Made by a program: the position numbers and the translations under genes. Below are positions 34,634 through 41,153 of a DNA stretch of 43,601 bases, piece after piece. Source of the stretch: Gammaproteobacteria bacterium (lineage in GTDB: Bacteria; Pseudomonadota; Gammaproteobacteria; Steroidobacterales; GCA-2729495); NCBI GenBank assembly GCA_013001905.1, contig JABDLC010000024.1:1-43601 (forward strand). The letters run 5' to 3'. Under the pieces are notes generated by a model that made no database searches, had not been told where the DNA came from, and worked only from the letters and a program-made list of their open reading frames with translations. Within the stretch, counting starts at the first letter, position 1. Each line of letters opens with the position of its first letter.

Positions 34634-34649
34634 TGTGATGGACGTCACA
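34634..34649 (+). promoter_or_regulatory. CRP/Clp/Vfr-type operator upstream of HD-GYP paralog 1
   Basis: TGTGA-N6-TCACA is a perfect match to the CRP-family palindrome core. Its centre (34641.5) is 41.5 bases before the start point predicted from the TAAAGT hexamer at 34671-34676. That is the classic spacing of a class II CRP-activated promoter. Confidence 0.65.
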
Positions 34650-34655
34650 GTTAGC

Positions 34656-34682
34656 ACCCCTCACCGTTGTTAAAGTCAGACT
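34656..34682 (+). promoter_or_regulatory. Promoter-proximal element shared by both HD-GYP genes (copy 1)
   Basis: ACCCC, nine bases, TTAAAGT, two bases, GACT: 19 of 27 positions are identical, without gaps, to the element upstream of the other HD-GYP gene. TAAAGT can serve as the -10 hexamer. About 66 bases separate the element from the HD-GYP ATG. Confidence 0.5.
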
Positions 34683-34748
34683 TCGTAAACGCTTGAGAAC
34701 ATCAGTACGACAGCGTTCCACACGAAGCTCTACAAAAAGAACAACAAT

Positions 34749-35942
34749 ATGAGCAATACCCTCGACGACCATCTGGTTGCGCTAAAAGCGGACCGTCTGC
34801 GCCCCGGCATGTACGTGGCCGCACTTGACCGGCTCTGGCTGCACACACCGTTCCCGCCGGGCGGCTTTTTCGTGCGTGATGAAAGCCAGATAGAGCGCAT
34901 CGGCCGCTACTGCTCGTATGTCTACGTGGACCCGCACCGCAGCGAGGAAACGCTTGATGCCGTGATCCCGTTTGAACCCCTGCCGGCGACACTGCTTGCA
35001 CCGCGGGTCAGTTCATTGTCGATCGAGGAAGAACTGCCGTGGGCCAAACAGGCGCTGATCGCATTCCGCGCGACTGTGAAAACCATGATTCGCGATGTCC
35101 GCAATGGCAAGCTGCCGGAGATGGTAGCGCTCAACACGAGCCTCATACCGATCGTTGAAAGTGTCAAGCGCTGCCCTGACGCACTGGTCTGGTTGTTGCG
35201 CACCGAAGCCAGTGACGGCTATCTGTATCGCCGCTCGATCGGGACCGCGATCATTGCAACGGTTTACGGTGACAAACTCGGCCTGGATCGCAACGCTTTG
35301 ATCGAACTGTCACTGGGCGCCCTGCTGATGGATATCGGCAAAATCGAAGTGCCCGTGCCCATACTCGCCAAGTCAGAAAATCTTTCGCCGGAAGAAACCG
35401 GCCTGGTGCGTAAGCATGTCGGGCACGCCGTTGAGCTGATCCGCATCATCGATAACGTTCCGGCCCGCGTGATCGGCATGGTAAGCAATCATCACGAGCG
35501 CTTTGACGGCAGCGGCTACCCGCACAAACGCCGCGGCACAGAAATTCCGCTCTTCGCACGCATGGCCGGCATTGTCGATACCTTCGACGCGATAACGCAG
35601 GATCGCCGCTATGCGCCTGCTATTTCTGCACATACGGCACTCCGCTACCTGAACGGCCAGCGCCGTACCAAGTTCGATGATGCCCTGCTGCAGGAATTTA
35701 TTCGCGCGATGGGTATTTATCCGACCGGTACCTGGGTTGAGTTGCTGGACGGCTCAATCGGCGTCGTCTGCGCTCAGGATAGTCAGTGGCCGCTGGCACC
35801 GCGCATTGCCATCGTCAGCAAAGCGAACGGCATGCCGATGGACGCACACACTGTGCATGCGTCGCGTCTGAATCCGATCATCCGTGCACGACACCGGGCC
35901 AATCCCGGATTTTCCGCGCCCAACCTCGAAGCGATAGTCTGA
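34749..35942 (+). CDS. HD-GYP domain protein, paralog 1 (DUF3391 + HD-GYP, altered metal site)
   Basis: This 397-residue protein has an N-terminal DUF3391 domain (about 10-75, LRPGMYVAALDRLWLHTPF) and an HD-GYP domain (about 155-330). The GYP block HHERFDGSGYP (248-258) and the late Asp277 in GIVDTFDA are intact. The usual His of the HD pair is Met194 (LLMDIGK), and the upstream helix has Arg161-Arg162 where the family usually has His. HD-GYP domains hydrolyse cyclic di-GMP; with these changes this copy may be a c-di-GMP sensor or use a different metal arrangement. The leader is A-rich and lacks a clear Shine-Dalgarno site. It has a CRP-like site upstream. Confidence 0.9.
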   Translation: MSNTLDDHLVALKADRLRPGMYVAALDRLWLHTPFPPGGFFVRDESQIERIGRYCSYVYVDPHRSEETLDAVIPFEPLPATLLAPRVSSLSIEEELPWAKQALIAFRATVKTMIRDVRNGKLPEMVALNTSLIPIVESVKRCPDALVWLLRTEASDGYLYRRSIGTAIIATVYGDKLGLDRNALIELSLGALLMDIGKIEVPVPILAKSENLSPEETGLVRKHVGHAVELIRIIDNVPARVIGMVSNHHERFDGSGYPHKRRGTEIPLFARMAGIVDTFDAITQDRRYAPAISAHTALRYLNGQRRTKFDDALLQEFIRAMGIYPTGTWVELLDGSIGVVCAQDSQWPLAPRIAIVSKANGMPMDAHTVHASRLNPIIRARHRANPGFSAPNLEAIV

Positions 35943-35995
35943 CCCCAATCGCCTGACGGTCATCGGCGCCGGCATTTCTCATGCATAATCGGGCG

Positions 35996-36601
35996 ATGCC
36001 CGATATCAAACTTTACAGCTATGGCGGGTGTCCCTTCGCCCGCCGCACGCGGATGACGCTGGCCGAAAAAGACATCGACTACGAACTCATCGAAATCGAC
36101 CTGCGCAACAGGCCGGCAAATTTCAAAGAGATTTCACCCTACGGCAAAGTGCCGGTGTTATTTCACAACGGCAACCGCCTGTACGAGTCCGCGATCATCA
36201 ATGAGTATCTCGACGAGGTGTACCCTGAACCCCCGCTGATGCCGGACGATCCGTTGCAGAAGGCGCAGACGCGCATCTGGATGAATTACTGTGACACCCA
36301 GTTCAGTAACGCCAGCTGGCAATTCATGCAGGCAGGTGACAATGAAGAAAAGCTTGCCGCAGCGCGCGCCACCCTGCGCGAATGCTTCCTGTTTATCGAA
36401 CATGAAGGCATGCGTCAGCTGAGTGACGGCCCGTACTGGCTCGGCGACACGTTCTCCATGCTCGATATTCAGTTCGCCACGTTCTTCAGCCGCTACATGA
36501 GCGAACCGGGCGCAAGCGAGATCCCGACGGAATGCACCCGCCTCAAGACCTGGCTGAACCTGATGGCCGGGCACGACAGTTTCCTGAAATCAGCGGCATA
36601 A
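35996..36601 (+). CDS. Glutathione S-transferase family protein (SspA-like)
   Basis: This 201-residue protein starts at ATG 35996, just before PDIKLYSYGGCPFARR; an upstream in-frame ATG at 35981 would add five residues. It has an N-terminal thioredoxin-like GST domain with Cys12-Pro-Phe-Ala and the cis-proline segment GKVPVLF, then YESAIINEYLDE. The helical C-domain has LGDTFSMLDIQFATFFSR. It resembles omega-class GSTs and SspA. The Cys12 suggests thiol-transferase chemistry. It lies 53 bases after the HD-GYP gene and 24 bases before DUF1838 paralog 2. Confidence 0.85.
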   Translation: MPDIKLYSYGGCPFARRTRMTLAEKDIDYELIEIDLRNRPANFKEISPYGKVPVLFHNGNRLYESAIINEYLDEVYPEPPLMPDDPLQKAQTRIWMNYCDTQFSNASWQFMQAGDNEEKLAAARATLRECFLFIEHEGMRQLSDGPYWLGDTFSMLDIQFATFFSRYMSEPGASEIPTECTRLKTWLNLMAGHDSFLKSAA

Positions 36602-36625
36602 ACCGCGCAGACAAGACGAATCACT

Positions 36626-37588
36626 ATGGATAAGAAGCAGCAGACTCCCCCGGCCCACCCGCACCGCGTAACACGACGCGACGCACTGACCGGCGCTGCC
36701 GGTCTGGCAGGGCTTGCGCTCGGCGGCAGCGTGCAGGCCGGCGGACACGCCAGTCTTGACCTTGATGACCCGCGTGACAACCTGACCGCGTTGATCAAAT
36801 TGCAGGCAGACACCAGTGGCGCCGATGTGATCAGCGGCTTTCCCGGGGAGGTCTGGGGATGGGTGCCGGGCGAGGGCAACAAACTATTGTTCCGCAGCTA
36901 CGGCATCGGCGCCAGTCATGTCGAAGAGACCGATGAAGGCTGGCGTTTTTACCATCGCGAGCTTATGTACTACCTCGATCCGGAGACGGGCGAGATCCTG
37001 AACACATGGACCAACCCCTACACTGGCAGAACGGTTGAAGTGCTGCATATCCTGAACGATCCGGTGCATCGCTTTTACGCGTTTGACGGGGGTCGGTTCG
37101 CGTTTCCCTGGCCCTACACCGTCATGGGCGACGATCTCGTTTTCCGCATCAGCGTATTCAGCTTTCGGGACTCGGTCATGCCACGGCTGGAATACCCCGT
37201 GCACTCCGCTGACAACAAGTATCAGGCAGCGGAACTGTGGATGATGAATGGCCGGGTTGGTGAAGTGATGAACCCCGACATCACTTCAGCCAGTTGTGTC
37301 ACGTCATGGGCGCGTGTCGGGCAGTGGCTGCCGTTCATGGAAATGGGCAACCGGCCCGGCGTGATGGTCTATCACTGCGACTCATACAAGCTGCTCGAAG
37401 GCGTGCAGCAAATCCCTGCGGATATTCTGGCGTACACGGAGAAGCATCACGCCAAATATCTGCAGTCACCGAGCGAATGGCAGTCGCTGCGTCTGAATGA
37501 AAGTCAGCTGACCGTATCCAAGCGCGAGGTCGATGAGCGCTGGGATTCGGAAGTGCGGCCGGTCGGCTCGGTTTTCGAAGTCGACTGA
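36626..37588 (+). CDS. Tat-exported DUF1838 family protein (paralog 2)
   Basis: This 320-residue protein has a Tat signal (VTRRDALTGAAGLAGLALGG). The mature region opens LDLDDPRDNLTALIKLQADTSG, nearly the same as paralog 1 (22382-23269). It shares YYLDPETGEILNTWTNPYTGRTVEV in the centre. The remainder is more diverged. Function is unknown. It follows the GST-like gene with a short gap. Its last 85 bases overlap, tail to tail, the coiled-coil membrane protein gene on the other strand. Confidence 0.82.
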   Translation: MDKKQQTPPAHPHRVTRRDALTGAAGLAGLALGGSVQAGGHASLDLDDPRDNLTALIKLQADTSGADVISGFPGEVWGWVPGEGNKLLFRSYGIGASHVEETDEGWRFYHRELMYYLDPETGEILNTWTNPYTGRTVEVLHILNDPVHRFYAFDGGRFAFPWPYTVMGDDLVFRISVFSFRDSVMPRLEYPVHSADNKYQAAELWMMNGRVGEVMNPDITSASCVTSWARVGQWLPFMEMGNRPGVMVYHCDSYKLLEGVQQIPADILAYTEKHHAKYLQSPSEWQSLRLNESQLTVSKREVDERWDSEVRPVGSVFEVD

Positions 37589-37866
37589 GTTTGCTTCGGC
37601 TTTGTAACCGTTTGCTTCTGAAGATCGCGACGACGCAGTTCGTCACGCAATTCCGTGATGATCTTGCGCTGCTGTCGAAACTGCACGGCCACAGGACGAA
37701 TGCGTTCGCGCCAGGCCCGATATTTTGAGCGCGTGCGCTTCAGTCGCTCATCGGCCGACGCCTGTTGTTTACCCAGCTCCAGACGAAATACGGTTTTCGC
37801 CAGAATCCAGCCCGCCATGAAGCCTATTGGCAGTGACATCAGCACGGCAGCAACGACGTTATCCAT
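37504..37866 (-). CDS. Small membrane-anchored coiled-coil protein, unknown
   Basis: The 120-residue product starts at ATG 37866, eight bases inside the end of the GGDEF/EAL gene. It has one N-terminal membrane helix (about 4-24), then a basic coiled coil (about 35-85, KYRAWRERIRPVAVQFRQQRKIITELRD-like) and a low-complexity Thr/Ser/Lys/Gln tail. I do not recognise a family. Position as third gene of the HD-GYP2-EAL operon suggests a partner or localisation factor for the cyclic-di-GMP protein. The 3' 85 bases are antisense to the DUF1838 gene, so the tail sequence is constrained by both. Confidence 0.65.
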   Translation of the reverse strand: MDNVVAAVLMSLPIGFMAGWILAKTVFRLELGKQQASADERLKRTRSKYRAWRERIRPVAVQFRQQRKIITELRDELRRRDLQKQTVTKPKQTQSTSKTEPTGRTSESQRSSTSRLDTVS

Positions 37867-39169
37867 GTGACGCATCCGCGGTTCGCTTTGCCGAGCTCTC
37901 GAGCAGCCAGTTCCGCTCAAATTCAGCACTGGCGCATGGTTTACCGAAGTAATAACCCTGCCCGATATCGCAGCCTATGTCGCGGACGACTTCCATGATG
38001 CCTTCTGACTCGATGCCTTCGGCAACAACTTTGAGGCCCATGGCATGGGACAGATCAACAACGGACTTAACGATTTCACGGTCTCTCGGGTCTTCGAGCA
38101 CCGTCTGCACAAACGACCGGTCAATTTTCAACTCGTCGACCGGCAGGGTTTTCAGCCAGCTCAAGCTGCTATAGCCGGTACCGAAATCATCAATCGATGT
38201 GCGGATGCCTAATTGCCGCAGCCGTGAGAGCGTTGCAACGCTCTGGTCCGGGTTTCGCATGAGGCTCGTTTCGGTAACCTCGAGCGTCAACCGTGCCGGG
38301 TCAAGGCTCCACATGCGCAGCACATCGGCCAGCACGTCGACCAGATCCGTATCTTCCAGATCCGTCGCACTTGAATTGATCGCCATATGAAAATTGGGCG
38401 AACGGCGCACCCAACGCGCAACCTCGCGAGACGTGTTGTTCATCACAAACTGCAGCAACGGAATCATCGACCGCGCGCGCTCCAGCTCATTCATGAAGCT
38501 GCCCGGCGCCATCAATCCGTCAGGGCCGCTCCACCGCACCAGTGCTTCAGCCCCTGACAATTGCCCCGTGCGCAGATCAAACTGCGGCTGAAAATGCACC
38601 CGAAACTCACCATTCTCAATGGCCTTGTGCGCATCGAACAGCGGATGCGAAGACGGCCCGGGCGTATCGCCGGCCTTTGAATCAAATATCATCACAGACT
38701 TGTCGCTGGACCTGCAGTCCTGCAACGCCTGCTCTGCTTGCCTGAGCAAGTCGTCAGAACGCTCTTCCTCCGACCCGGCCAGCGCACACCCCATGCAGAT
38801 ATCGAGGCGCACCCGGGTTTCATCGATCTGCACCCATTCCGCCGCAAGCCGGCCAATCTTGTCGGCCGCGAGCATGACGTGACTCTCATGTCTGGGCGCG
38901 TGCAGCACAAAGGCGAATGAATTGCTGCTCAACTCGAGTGCAAGATCATTCTCGCGGGCGATAGCGGCGAATTTCTTATAGAAGGTTTCCAGCACCCGAT
39001 CACCGATTGAGTACCCAAAACGCTCATTCAGTGTGTTGACGCCGTCGATCCTGCCCATGATCAGGGCAACCGAAGCGGTATCGGTGTCTTGTCGCAACCG
39101 GTCAATTCTGCGAATGAGATCGCTGTAGCGGATGCCGGCCCTGTTGATTGAAGACATCGATCCGCTCAC
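37859..39169 (-). CDS. GGDEF(degenerate)-EAL protein, probable cyclic-di-GMP phosphodiesterase
   Basis: This 436-residue protein starts at GTG 39169 (overlapping the HD-GYP2 stop; ATG 39157 is an alternative). The N-terminal GGDEF-like domain (about 30-165) has SSNSF at 81-85 instead of GGDEF, so it cannot be a cyclase. The EAL domain (about 180-425) keeps E208-A-L, LEVTET, DDFGTGYSS, KIDRSFV, AEGIE and GYYFGKP, the full set of catalytic-type motifs. Expected activity is c-di-GMP to pGpG hydrolysis in the cytoplasm. There is no membrane segment or sensor domain; a membrane partner may be the coiled-coil protein encoded next. Confidence 0.92.
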   Translation of the reverse strand: MSGSMSSINRAGIRYSDLIRRIDRLRQDTDTASVALIMGRIDGVNTLNERFGYSIGDRVLETFYKKFAAIARENDLALELSSNSFAFVLHAPRHESHVMLAADKIGRLAAEWVQIDETRVRLDICMGCALAGSEEERSDDLLRQAEQALQDCRSSDKSVMIFDSKAGDTPGPSSHPLFDAHKAIENGEFRVHFQPQFDLRTGQLSGAEALVRWSGPDGLMAPGSFMNELERARSMIPLLQFVMNNTSREVARWVRRSPNFHMAINSSATDLEDTDLVDVLADVLRMWSLDPARLTLEVTETSLMRNPDQSVATLSRLRQLGIRTSIDDFGTGYSSLSWLKTLPVDELKIDRSFVQTVLEDPRDREIVKSVVDLSHAMGLKVVAEGIESEGIMEVVRDIGCDIGQGYYFGKPCASAEFERNWLLESSAKRTADASHG

Positions 39170-40449
39170 ATAAAGTAGTCGCGCGGGTCAATATCAAACG
39201 CGCCCGCTTCGTGACCGTGAGAGATCCACACCGCATCGGGTTCGCTCGTCTTGCTTGGGTATTTGCGGAGATCGATCGTTTCGTAGCTCGTTACCGGCTG
39301 CTTGTCACGGTCGAGACAAATAAGCACGGTCGGTCGCAGGCGGCGGACCCTGTTCTGCTCTACAACAATCCCAACCTCACCGGTATTCAGCTCGACGAGA
39401 CTGCCGGTAGGAAACATGCCCAGCGCCTGCACAAACTGTTCGACCAGTTCTTTCTGAAAGTCTTTCCCTGCCAGCCTGTTCAGCTCCCTGATCGCGTCGT
39501 AAGTGGAGCGCGCGGGTGCGTGAGGCCGTTCAGTCACCATGGCGTCATAGCAATCCACAATGCCGGCGATGCGACCGCAGATCGGGATGTCATCATCCTC
39601 CAGGCCACGCGGGTAACCCGAGCCGTCGAAGCGCTCGTGATGACTCTCAATCATGTCGAGAATTTCACGACAGAGTGCGTCCGATGTCAGTGCCAGCTCC
39701 ATGCTGAAGTCGACGTGCTTACGCATCGCTTCCGTTTCAGGATCGGACAGTGATTCAGGTTTGGCCAGCAGTTCCTGTGGCACACGAGTCTTACCGATAT
39801 CCAGCAACATGCCGCCGACCGCCAGTTTGTCGAGGTCCTCGCGGGTGAAGCCGAGATGGCGGCCGAGCACCACAGCCCAAACCGAACAGGCGATGGAATG
39901 ATGGTAGGTGTAGTCATCCTGCTTCTGCAGAGTCATCAGCCATGACATGGCGTCGGGATTCCGCAGCACGCTGTCGACCATCGGCGTTACCGCCGCGCTG
40001 ATCGTCTCTGCATCAATGTCGCGTCCTGCGCGCACGCGAGCCAACACCTTTTCCATGATCTGCACGGCGTTGGAGTACGCGGCGGCCGCTTTCGGCGCCT
40101 CGTCACGGGTGCTGACTTTGTTGGTGTAGTTGATCTCGCCTTTGAGATCGGTAATCGTCGCTTCCGCGAGATCAGGCAGGTTTGGCTTTGTTACGAAGAT
40201 TTTCGCCGCCGGCTCGGGCGCGTTGTCGCCGGCGGAACGGCTGAGAATCTCGGCTTCAGACAATGCACTCCGTGCGGCGTCGACGAAAACATGCTTGCAG
40301 AGCTCTTGCAGCTGCTCTAGCTCCGACTCGTCCCGCACCTCGAAACCCTGAAATAGAAATGGTGTTTCCAGCCATGGTCGGTCGAGTTTTGCCACAAACA
40401 TGCCGGGCAAGAGATCACCGACATCAATCTTGATACGTTTTTCCGCCAC
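39166..40449 (-). CDS. HD-GYP domain protein, paralog 2 (DUF3391 + HD-GYP)
   Basis: I use GTG 40449, preceded by GAGGCGGG; a TTG at 40467 would lengthen it by six residues. The 427-residue protein has a DUF3391 domain (LLPGMFVAKLDRPWLETPF) and an HD-GYP domain with His183-His184, GGMLLDIGK (Leu216-Asp217 in place of the HD pair), His245, HHERFDGSGYP (270-280) and GIVDCYDAM. Only the HD histidine is changed, so activity is possible. It is homologous to the protein at 34749. It heads the operon with the EAL protein and the coiled-coil protein. Confidence 0.92.
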   Translation of the reverse strand: MAEKRIKIDVGDLLPGMFVAKLDRPWLETPFLFQGFEVRDESELEQLQELCKHVFVDAARSALSEAEILSRSAGDNAPEPAAKIFVTKPNLPDLAEATITDLKGEINYTNKVSTRDEAPKAAAAYSNAVQIMEKVLARVRAGRDIDAETISAAVTPMVDSVLRNPDAMSWLMTLQKQDDYTYHHSIACSVWAVVLGRHLGFTREDLDKLAVGGMLLDIGKTRVPQELLAKPESLSDPETEAMRKHVDFSMELALTSDALCREILDMIESHHERFDGSGYPRGLEDDDIPICGRIAGIVDCYDAMVTERPHAPARSTYDAIRELNRLAGKDFQKELVEQFVQALGMFPTGSLVELNTGEVGIVVEQNRVRRLRPTVLICLDRDKQPVTSYETIDLRKYPSKTSEPDAVWISHGHEAGAFDIDPRDYFM

Positions 40450-40522
40450 GAACCCGCCTCTGATCAAATAGGAACTGAGGCTTAATATGTTAGATAGCAG
40501 CCACGGCGATTAGCGGTGCACG

Positions 40523-40549
40523 AGTCACACTTTAATAGATGAGTGGGGT
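40523..40549 (-). promoter_or_regulatory. Promoter-proximal element shared by both HD-GYP genes (copy 2)
   Basis: On the minus strand: ACCCC (40549-40545), nine bases, TTAAAGT (40535-40529), two bases, GACT (40526-40523). Sequence and spacing match copy 1 at 34656-34682 in 19 of 27 positions. It lies 73 bases before GTG 40449. Confidence 0.5.
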
Positions 40550-40569
40550 CAGAAGCGCCAAACGACGAC

Positions 40570-40585
40570 TGTGACGCAGTTCACG
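40570..40585 (-). promoter_or_regulatory. CRP/Clp/Vfr-type operator upstream of HD-GYP paralog 2
   Basis: TGTGA-N6-TCACG matches the CRP-family core in nine of ten positions. It overlaps the msrA stop codon (40581-40583), so it is embedded in the end of the upstream gene. Its centre is about 55 bases before the start point predicted from the TAAAGT hexamer, a less standard position than at paralog 1. Confidence 0.5.
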
Positions 40586-41153
40586 CCGGGGCCGGCATGC
40601 AGACCCCCGTACCGCCGAGCCCGCAATAGCCATTGGGATTCTTGGCCAGATACTGCTGATGATAGTCCTCAGCATAGTAGAACGGCCCGGCCGGCTTTAT
40701 CTCGGTCGTGATCGTGCCGAAGCCCTTTTTATTCAGTGCTGCCTGAAAATGCTCACGCGACTGCTCTGCAGCCTCAAGCTGCGCGTCACTGTGGGTATAA
40801 ATGCCCGATCGGTACTGCGTGCCGACATCATTGCCTTGTCGCATACCCTGCGTTGGGTCATGTGATTCCCAGAACTCCTGCAGGAGTCGCTTGTAAGTGA
40901 TCACGGCCGGGTCATACACCACGAGGACGACTTCGTTATGCCCCGTGTTGCCGGCACAAACCTGCTGGTAGGTCGGGTTGACGGTATCCCCGGCCGCGTA
41001 GCCTGCCGCGGTCGACCACACACCCGGTAAGGTCCAGAAACGCCGCTCGGCACCCCAGAAACAGCCCATGCCAAAGACCGCCTGCTCGAGGCCGTCCGGG
41101 AACGGCGGCTTAAAGCGGTTGCCGTTTACGAAATGTGTTGCCGTGTCACTCAT
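40581..41153 (-). CDS. msrA: Peptide-methionine (S)-S-oxide reductase MsrA
   Basis: This 190-residue enzyme has the active-site motif [13 protein letters not shown] (nucleophile Cys31), then [54 protein letters not shown] and [22 protein letters not shown] at the C-terminus with the recycling cysteines. It reduces methionine-S-sulfoxide in proteins using thioredoxin. There is no signal peptide, so it is cytoplasmic. The start lies four bases after the stop of the TRAP-type binding lipoprotein gene. Confidence 0.96.

Follow-up and report, generated by a model that had tools for sequence, protein, structure and literature searches.

Conserved class II CRP-type sites upstream of two degenerate HD-GYP genes in a gammaproteobacterial family and a predicted link between cAMP and c-di-GMP

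Two genes encoding HD-GYP proteins lie on a contig from a gammaproteobacterial draft genome (Gammaproteobacteria bacterium, GenBank assembly GCA_013001905.1, contig JABDLC010000024.1), each with a CRP-type palindrome upstream, and this raises the question of whether a CRP-family regulator controls both, which one it might be and what it would mean for the messenger cyclic di-GMP (c-di-GMP). The window, by which is meant the whole 43,601-nucleotide stretch that was analysed, is contig C53 of assembly G000 (2.42 Mb, 158 contigs, 92% complete, 5.2% contamination); genomes, contigs and loci are given G, C and L numbers and the HD-GYP genes are called paralog 1 and paralog 2. An initial annotation, made by a model, had proposed a palindrome and a shared 27-bp promoter element at both genes, and a c-di-GMP-inhibited regulator like Clp of Xanthomonas that could close a feedback loop. 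The reading reached here, and considered likely, is that both genes are under class II CRP promoters activated by CRP with cyclic AMP (cAMP), that an EAL protein lowers c-di-GMP and that the HD-GYP proteins act as adaptors.

The letters on which the annotation was based are present. TGTGATGGACGTCACA is a perfect TGTGA-N6-TCACA at 34634-34649 and the sole perfect palindrome of this type in the window, its counterpart at 40570-40585 on the minus strand has one mismatch, and ACCCC-N9-TTAAAGT-N2-GACT occurs at 34656-34682 (plus) and 40549-40523 (minus) with no other exact match in the 2.42-Mb assembly. The two 27-mers are identical at 19 of 27 positions by hand count, as had been said. With up to two mismatches allowed, 16 copies of the palindrome were found in the window and 16.0 were expected from shuffles, which is the level of chance.

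Comparison with relatives gives good support for a conserved class II CRP-type promoter, made up of the palindrome and TAAAGT, at paralog 1. Same-family homologues have a site and a -10 upstream at matching spacing. Upstream regions were compared with their own dinucleotide shuffles using fixed consensus letters that were not fitted to these data (CRP half-sites, TATAAT, offset 36-38), and p≤0.05 was reached by 22 of 25 distinct rows overall and by 21 of the 24 that belong to the family; the rows were what was left of 30 loci once four partial matches (L014, L035, L037, L039) and L026, a duplicate of L024, had been dropped. Held-out models were also built from hand-picked rows of the family outside the genus (n=18 for paralog 1, n=24 for paralog 2), the window and its genus never being in training. 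Rows without a site or belonging to another paralog, L018 and L022 among them, were left out of training, so that the trained consensus favours the model. The paralog-1 site ranked first of 87,094 window positions with a score of 25.9, the next position reaching 12.0, and the trained -10 consensus read TGcTA.AgT. Three genus members agree in every fixed letter of CGTGTGA, GTCACAGTT and TG-N-TA-N-AGT, so that site and -10 form islands of identity within diverged DNA, while ACCCC and GACT vary. In the window, an offset of 37 separates the start of the site from the start of the -10 at either paralog; 37 is commonest for paralog 1 (12/18) and 36 for paralog 2 (21/24), in scans that imposed 36-38. 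A simpler count of the best palindrome without the -10 gave means of 7.9 and 8.1 of 10 against 6.5 for shuffles, a weak difference, and was replaced by the combined score. The -41.5 class II spacing proposed for this gene was therefore right, and its conservation in close relatives, the absence of which had been named as a refutation, was found.

Paralog 2 proved to have a different site from the one that had been proposed. Its relatives have TGTGA-N6-CCAC(A/G), some 20 bases and then TATTAT. Paralog-2-type regions beat their shuffles at p≤0.05 in 33 of 38 rows, including 23 of the 24 used for training (L046 did not); the window, L042, L046, L069 and L073 were above that value. The rows came from 40 regions, from which the G002 fragments L078 and L079 and L070, a duplicate of L051, were dropped and to which the window was added; they include third-type, further and out-of-family homologues (L042, L053, L058, L062, L063, L069, L071, L073, L074, L076, L077), and for L042 and L069 the tested stretch fell within the gene and a rerun from the start of the open frame gave no site (p 0.79 to 0.99). 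The held-out paralog-2 model placed the window site at 40529-40514 sixth of 87,094 positions and the palindrome of the initial annotation (palindrome 2) only 4101st, and TTAAAGT-N2-GACT at this gene therefore makes up the A-rich flank and left arm of the window site and is not a -10. In the alignment the second half of the paralog-2 27-mer falls on AAA(G/C)TGTGAC, where the conserved CRP site has its flank and left arm. Measured from palindrome 2, TAAAGT would set the site at about -55.5, not -41.5 (hand count), and with the wrong spacing and its low rank the palindrome was rejected as the main activator site. It may still bind CRP, since the paralog-1 model ranked it second. In G004, a relative from the same genus, the stretch separating msrA from paralog 2 contains a perfect palindrome at about -82.5 (hand count), not at the aligned place, and the same letters, a perfect TGTGACGCAGTTCACA, occur upstream of an HD-GYP homologue from another family (L204 in G103), probably by coincidence.

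The proposed 27-bp shared element accordingly falls apart, with paralog 1 conserving only its -10 part and paralog 2 using half of it as flank and arm of a CRP site, and the likeness between the two does look like chance. As a genome-wide regulon element it was also rejected: besides the two exact copies there were only two matches with three mismatches, against 17 for the reversed control. What survives is CRP-family control of both genes, strongly supported at paralog 1 and more weakly at paralog 2, there through a site that had been overlooked (Table 1).

Table 1. Positions in the window of the promoter elements and genes discussed
Feature	Position	Strand	Remarks
CRP-type site of paralog 1, TGTGATGGACGTCACA	34634..34649	+	centre -41.5 from predicted start
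Extended -10 of paralog 1, TG-T-TAAAGT	34668..34676 (hexamer 34671-34676)	+	predicted start ~34683, inferred
27-mer of the initial annotation, paralog 1	34656..34682	+	only -10 part conserved
Paralog 1, DUF3391 + degenerate HD-GYP, 397 aa	34749..35942	+	MD for HD; R for first metal His
Conserved CRP-type site of paralog 2, TGTGACTCGTGCACCG	40514..40529 (5' end 40529)	-	missed by the initial annotation
-10 of paralog 2, TAACAT	40487..40492	-	21 bases past site; predicted start ~40480
27-mer of the initial annotation, paralog 2	40523..40549	-	its TTAAAGTGTGACT enters left arm of conserved CRP site
Palindrome 2 of the initial annotation, CGTGAACTGCGTCACA	40570..40585	-	includes msrA stop codon; possible extra upstream site ~-97.5
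Paralog 2, DUF3391 + degenerate HD-GYP	39166..40449	-	LD for HD; start GTG at 40449, by comparison with relatives
GGDEF-EAL protein, overlaps end of paralog 2	37859..39169	-	EALVRW and DDFGTGYSS kept; GGDEF motif lost (by eye)
msrA, upstream neighbour of paralog 2	40581..41153	-	its stop codon lies in palindrome 2

How far the arrangement extends was examined both within the assembly and beyond the family. Palindromes with at most one mismatch are enriched in the whole assembly (57 places against 22 for the reversed pattern), as are class II arrangements of two half-sites, fixed spacing and TA-N3-T with at most one mismatch (42 against 11 in the control), and the genome can therefore be said to have a CRP-type regulon; seven of its class II matches are exact, paralog 1 among them. 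Outside the family only one of 29 paralog-2 homologues from other families of the class, the best-scoring 29 such loci, reached p≤0.05 (L204), which is the chance rate. Two of the 29 are poor controls, L200 because its match starts at residue 98 and the stretch is largely coding, and L211 as a truncated locus with an assumed match position. The third-type HD-GYP homologues of G000 and G003 had no site upstream (n=2, p 0.79 to 0.99). Since both sets of controls were negative, the shuffle test does not fire by itself and the promoter arrangement is lineage-specific. Within the family, paralogs 1 and 2 were convergent in all 17 genomes in which both could be assigned to one contig, as read by hand (G000, G001, G004, G007, G009, G010, G012, G014, G016, G019, G025, G026, G029, G031, G032, G033, G036); G006, with a partial paralog-1 match, was left out of the count.

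A number of other loci were noted during these scans. L158 (G000:C116:25841-25882, minus), an exact class II CRP-type match, lies ahead of a PAS-GGDEF gene whose GGDEF motif looks degenerate (YSEDRF), and its GTCACAGTTA is similar to the site of paralog 1. Two class II-like sites, L160 (G000:C15:1743-1784, minus) and L156 (G000:C89:9440-9481, minus), lie ahead of an HDOD gene and of a gene whose product has a CHASE4 match below threshold. The third, more distant HD-GYP homologue of G000, L069 (C55:4900-7000), showed nothing of the class II type ahead of its open frame (p 0.79 and 0.87), and in the genus member G003 (L013, on C165) the homologue search gave only the third type and no clear paralog 2.

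The search for a CRP-family regulator, also proposed in the initial annotation, was successful. G000 has five matches to the cyclic nucleotide monophosphate (cNMP) domain in four proteins, one of which, L001, is a CRP equivalog (NCBIfam NF008732, 312.6 bits against a cut-off of 266). It is nearer to Vfr and Escherichia coli CRP (E about 1e-77 to 1e-75) than to Clp (9.6e-58), and a match of at least 83% identity was present in 35 out of 36 relatives of the family that were searched, the other, G035, having a weak match only. L004 is a FixK/FnrL-like regulator that falls under the cut-offs of those models, and L002, with tandem cNMP domains, and L003, a kinase with one, do not resemble transcription factors. 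Excerpts of the Clp literature give Glu99 as a signature (PMC10333796) and place phosphate-binding Arg98 beside it (PMC12937710). In an alignment of six family members, read against the published numbering of Clp, L001 was found to lack this signature; the place is occupied by R85-T86 in G000 and G004 and by R-S in the other four. L128, a CRP paralog from another family, was rejected as a stand-in for Clp in the alignment, being itself nearer to CRP than to Clp. One paper attributes c-di-GMP binding to different residues of Clp and Glu99 to promoter binding (PMC6637768), and the papers disagree on where the ligand site of Clp lies or call it unresolved. The missing Glu99 therefore speaks against a Clp-like regulator without proving the point. 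The expectation of a Clp-like, c-di-GMP-inhibited regulator was thus not borne out, the protein being nearer to Vfr and CRP and having Thr where Clp has Glu99.

Components of cAMP metabolism were found in the same genome. There is a match to the class III cyclase domain in G000, as in 52 of 60 genomes with G000 included, and a cpdA (cAMP phosphodiesterase) equivalog at 235.9 bits (cut-off 225). A class II CRP-type site with one mismatch, L175 (G000:C77:11875-11916, plus), lies just before the cpdA equivalog, which suggests a feedback on cAMP. Because the regulator is a CRP equivalog without the Clp signature, and the genome has both a class III cyclase domain and cpdA behind a CRP-like site, cAMP is a likelier signal than c-di-GMP.

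The proteins encoded by the two target genes appear to be degenerate. The histidine of the HD dyad is replaced by M or L in 20 of 20 paralog-1 and 22 of 22 paralog-2 proteins, and neither paralog has the intact HD dyad and metal ligands that mark a catalytic HD-GYP domain; the HHE..DGSGYP part is retained in both window proteins. Loss of this histidine is common in the wider group, since H is present in only five of the 25 readable other-family homologues (29 in total). The protein that overlaps the end of paralog 2 has the EAL signature and DDFG and is a predicted phosphodiesterase, and is likely to be the active enzyme of the locus. Any effect of the promoter on c-di-GMP would most likely come about through this EAL enzyme, and the HD-GYP proteins would be its partners. 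The feedback loop on c-di-GMP turnover envisaged in the initial annotation is doubtful, as the HD histidine is missing from both HD-GYP domains.

A mechanism can be proposed in which each HD-GYP gene has its own class II promoter, where a CRP dimer centred at about -41.5, in place of a -35 box, would bring RNA polymerase to a weak -10. Most likely this dimer would be the CRP ortholog L001 with cAMP. Its binding would activate transcription, so that rising cAMP would switch on paralog 1 and, if they are co-transcribed, the paralog 2/EAL unit together. The EAL protein would then reduce c-di-GMP, and the HD-GYP proteins, without their catalytic histidine, could serve as binding or adaptor proteins. 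A more ambitious version, offered tentatively and with less than even confidence, is that in this family class II CRP control was acquired by a convergent HD-GYP pair, with a different site at each gene, and that the amounts of two non-catalytic c-di-GMP-type adaptors and one EAL enzyme are thereby set by cAMP. This would be a junction between both second messengers, specific to the lineage, in which HD-GYP domains sense or tether and do not cut.

Several known systems resemble parts of this proposal. Class II promoters of E. coli CRP and Pseudomonas Vfr have the same centre near -41.5 over the -35 place, a weak -10 and an orthologous CRP; here the targets are DUF3391-HD-GYP genes and the sites are predicted from sequence. 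In Myxococcus xanthus, according to excerpts of one study, the CRP-like protein MrpC directly activates the HD-GYP gene pmxA, curbing cyclic dinucleotides, and controls dmxB too; the likeness lies in the CRP-like protein and the HD-GYP gene, but the role of MrpC is in development, its sites at pmxA have their centres at -191 and -232 relative to the start codon, and PmxA is active, mainly on cyclic GMP-AMP (cGAMP) (PMC8844925). In Shewanella putrefaciens cAMP-CRP is reported to raise transcription of the EAL phosphodiesterase gene lrbR; there CRP aids the binding of LrbA and the authors, in the text excerpted, found no CRP site, whereas here a class II site is conserved (PMC12415220). Other papers also place c-di-GMP genes of several bacteria under CRP-type control, gcsA and cdgA among them. 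Among HD-GYP proteins, the HD dyad is missing from VC1087 and VCA0895 of Vibrio cholerae, with which no hydrolysis of c-di-GMP was seen, and VC2497, which has DUF3391, was inactive in all assays used and is one residue off the active pattern, a residue not stated to be the HD histidine (PMC4212101); PA4108, with its metal ligands present, is active (excerpt of PMC3774798). Activity was assayed in the Vibrio proteins, whereas here the degeneracy is read from the translations. Among the matches listed in searches of the open-licence literature, none described a promoter of the class II CRP type in front of DUF3391-HD-GYP genes.

A number of observations weigh against CRP-cAMP control of both genes. 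At paralog 1 the site was without significance in the shuffle test in three family members (L013, of the same genus, L018 and L022), and in L020 the best-scoring place differs from that expected from its neighbours. More generally the rows are related genomes and are not independent. At paralog 2, five other window positions score above the site, that of G001 (TGTGACATCGGCCAGC with TAGAAT, at the usual spacing) is out of register in the multi-genome alignment, and the shuffle-test score of G004 (L040) came from its upstream palindrome and not from the orthologous site. CRP also occurs in genomes that lack the genes or the arrangement, so that co-occurrence is no proof of a link. As for the signal, the cyclase of G000 is a domain match only, far under any NCBIfam cut-off, and no such match was found in the same-family drafts G002, G015, G023 and G027, all less than 90% complete. 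Residues 130-131 of L001, which adjoin the cAMP pocket, are Thr-Asn where Vfr has Thr-Thr, and with Asn131 in place of Thr its nucleotide preference is not certain; the counterpart in E. coli CRP is Thr127-Ser128. An EAL homologue follows paralog 2 in only 11 of 21 relatives, within the ~4 kb fetched and with one of the 21 from L130.

These points bear unequally on the alternatives. The weakness at paralog 2 could mean that its promoter has decayed in the window species, leaving CRP in control of paralog 1 only and the paralog-2 site as a relic; the site and -10 are weak by themselves in the window (6/10 consensus letters, p=0.113 against shuffles) and the rank is only sixth. G004, however, with TGTGACATCTGCACCG and TAACAT at the window's spacing (hand count), retains TGTGAC...TGCACCGC and the -10 despite diverged flanks, and decay is considered unlikely. 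Clp and CRP share the same TGTGA-N6-TCACA site type, and both belong to the CRP family. A regulator that needs no ligand for activity and that c-di-GMP inhibits could thus recognize both promoters, in a loop where less c-di-GMP gives more HD-GYP and so still less c-di-GMP. The divergent placements of the Clp ligand site in the excerpted papers leave room for this, as do the further CRP/FNR proteins of G000, which are possible c-di-GMP binders. According to the same sources Clp needs no ligand to bind DNA, from which c-di-GMP releases it (PMC3749722, PMC10333796, PMC12937710, PMC6637768); L001, by contrast, has far better E-values for Vfr and CRP, Thr86 in place of Glu99 and a genome with cpdA and a cyclase domain around it, the other CRP/FNR-type regulator is the FixK/FnrL-like L004, and the HD-GYP proteins that would close the loop lack their histidine. 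Control by a Clp-like protein is on this evidence improbable. That the palindromes and 27-mers are coincidental and signify no CRP control is hardly credible; the chance-level count of two-mismatch motifs and the accidental look of the 27-mer likeness would fit, but the held-out ranks, the shuffles and the out-of-family control speak against it, and for paralog 1 the held-out test largely refutes it.

The reading of CRP-cAMP control at both genes is accordingly preferred. The parts of these promoters are individually of known kinds, and a moderate interest attaches to their conservation in the family and to the degenerate nature of the targets. Reading the raw sequence had given the right regulator at one gene, while at the other half a binding site was taken for a -10. 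The conserved promoter anatomy predicts a link between cAMP and c-di-GMP across this genome family, which could be tested with a reporter and one protein.

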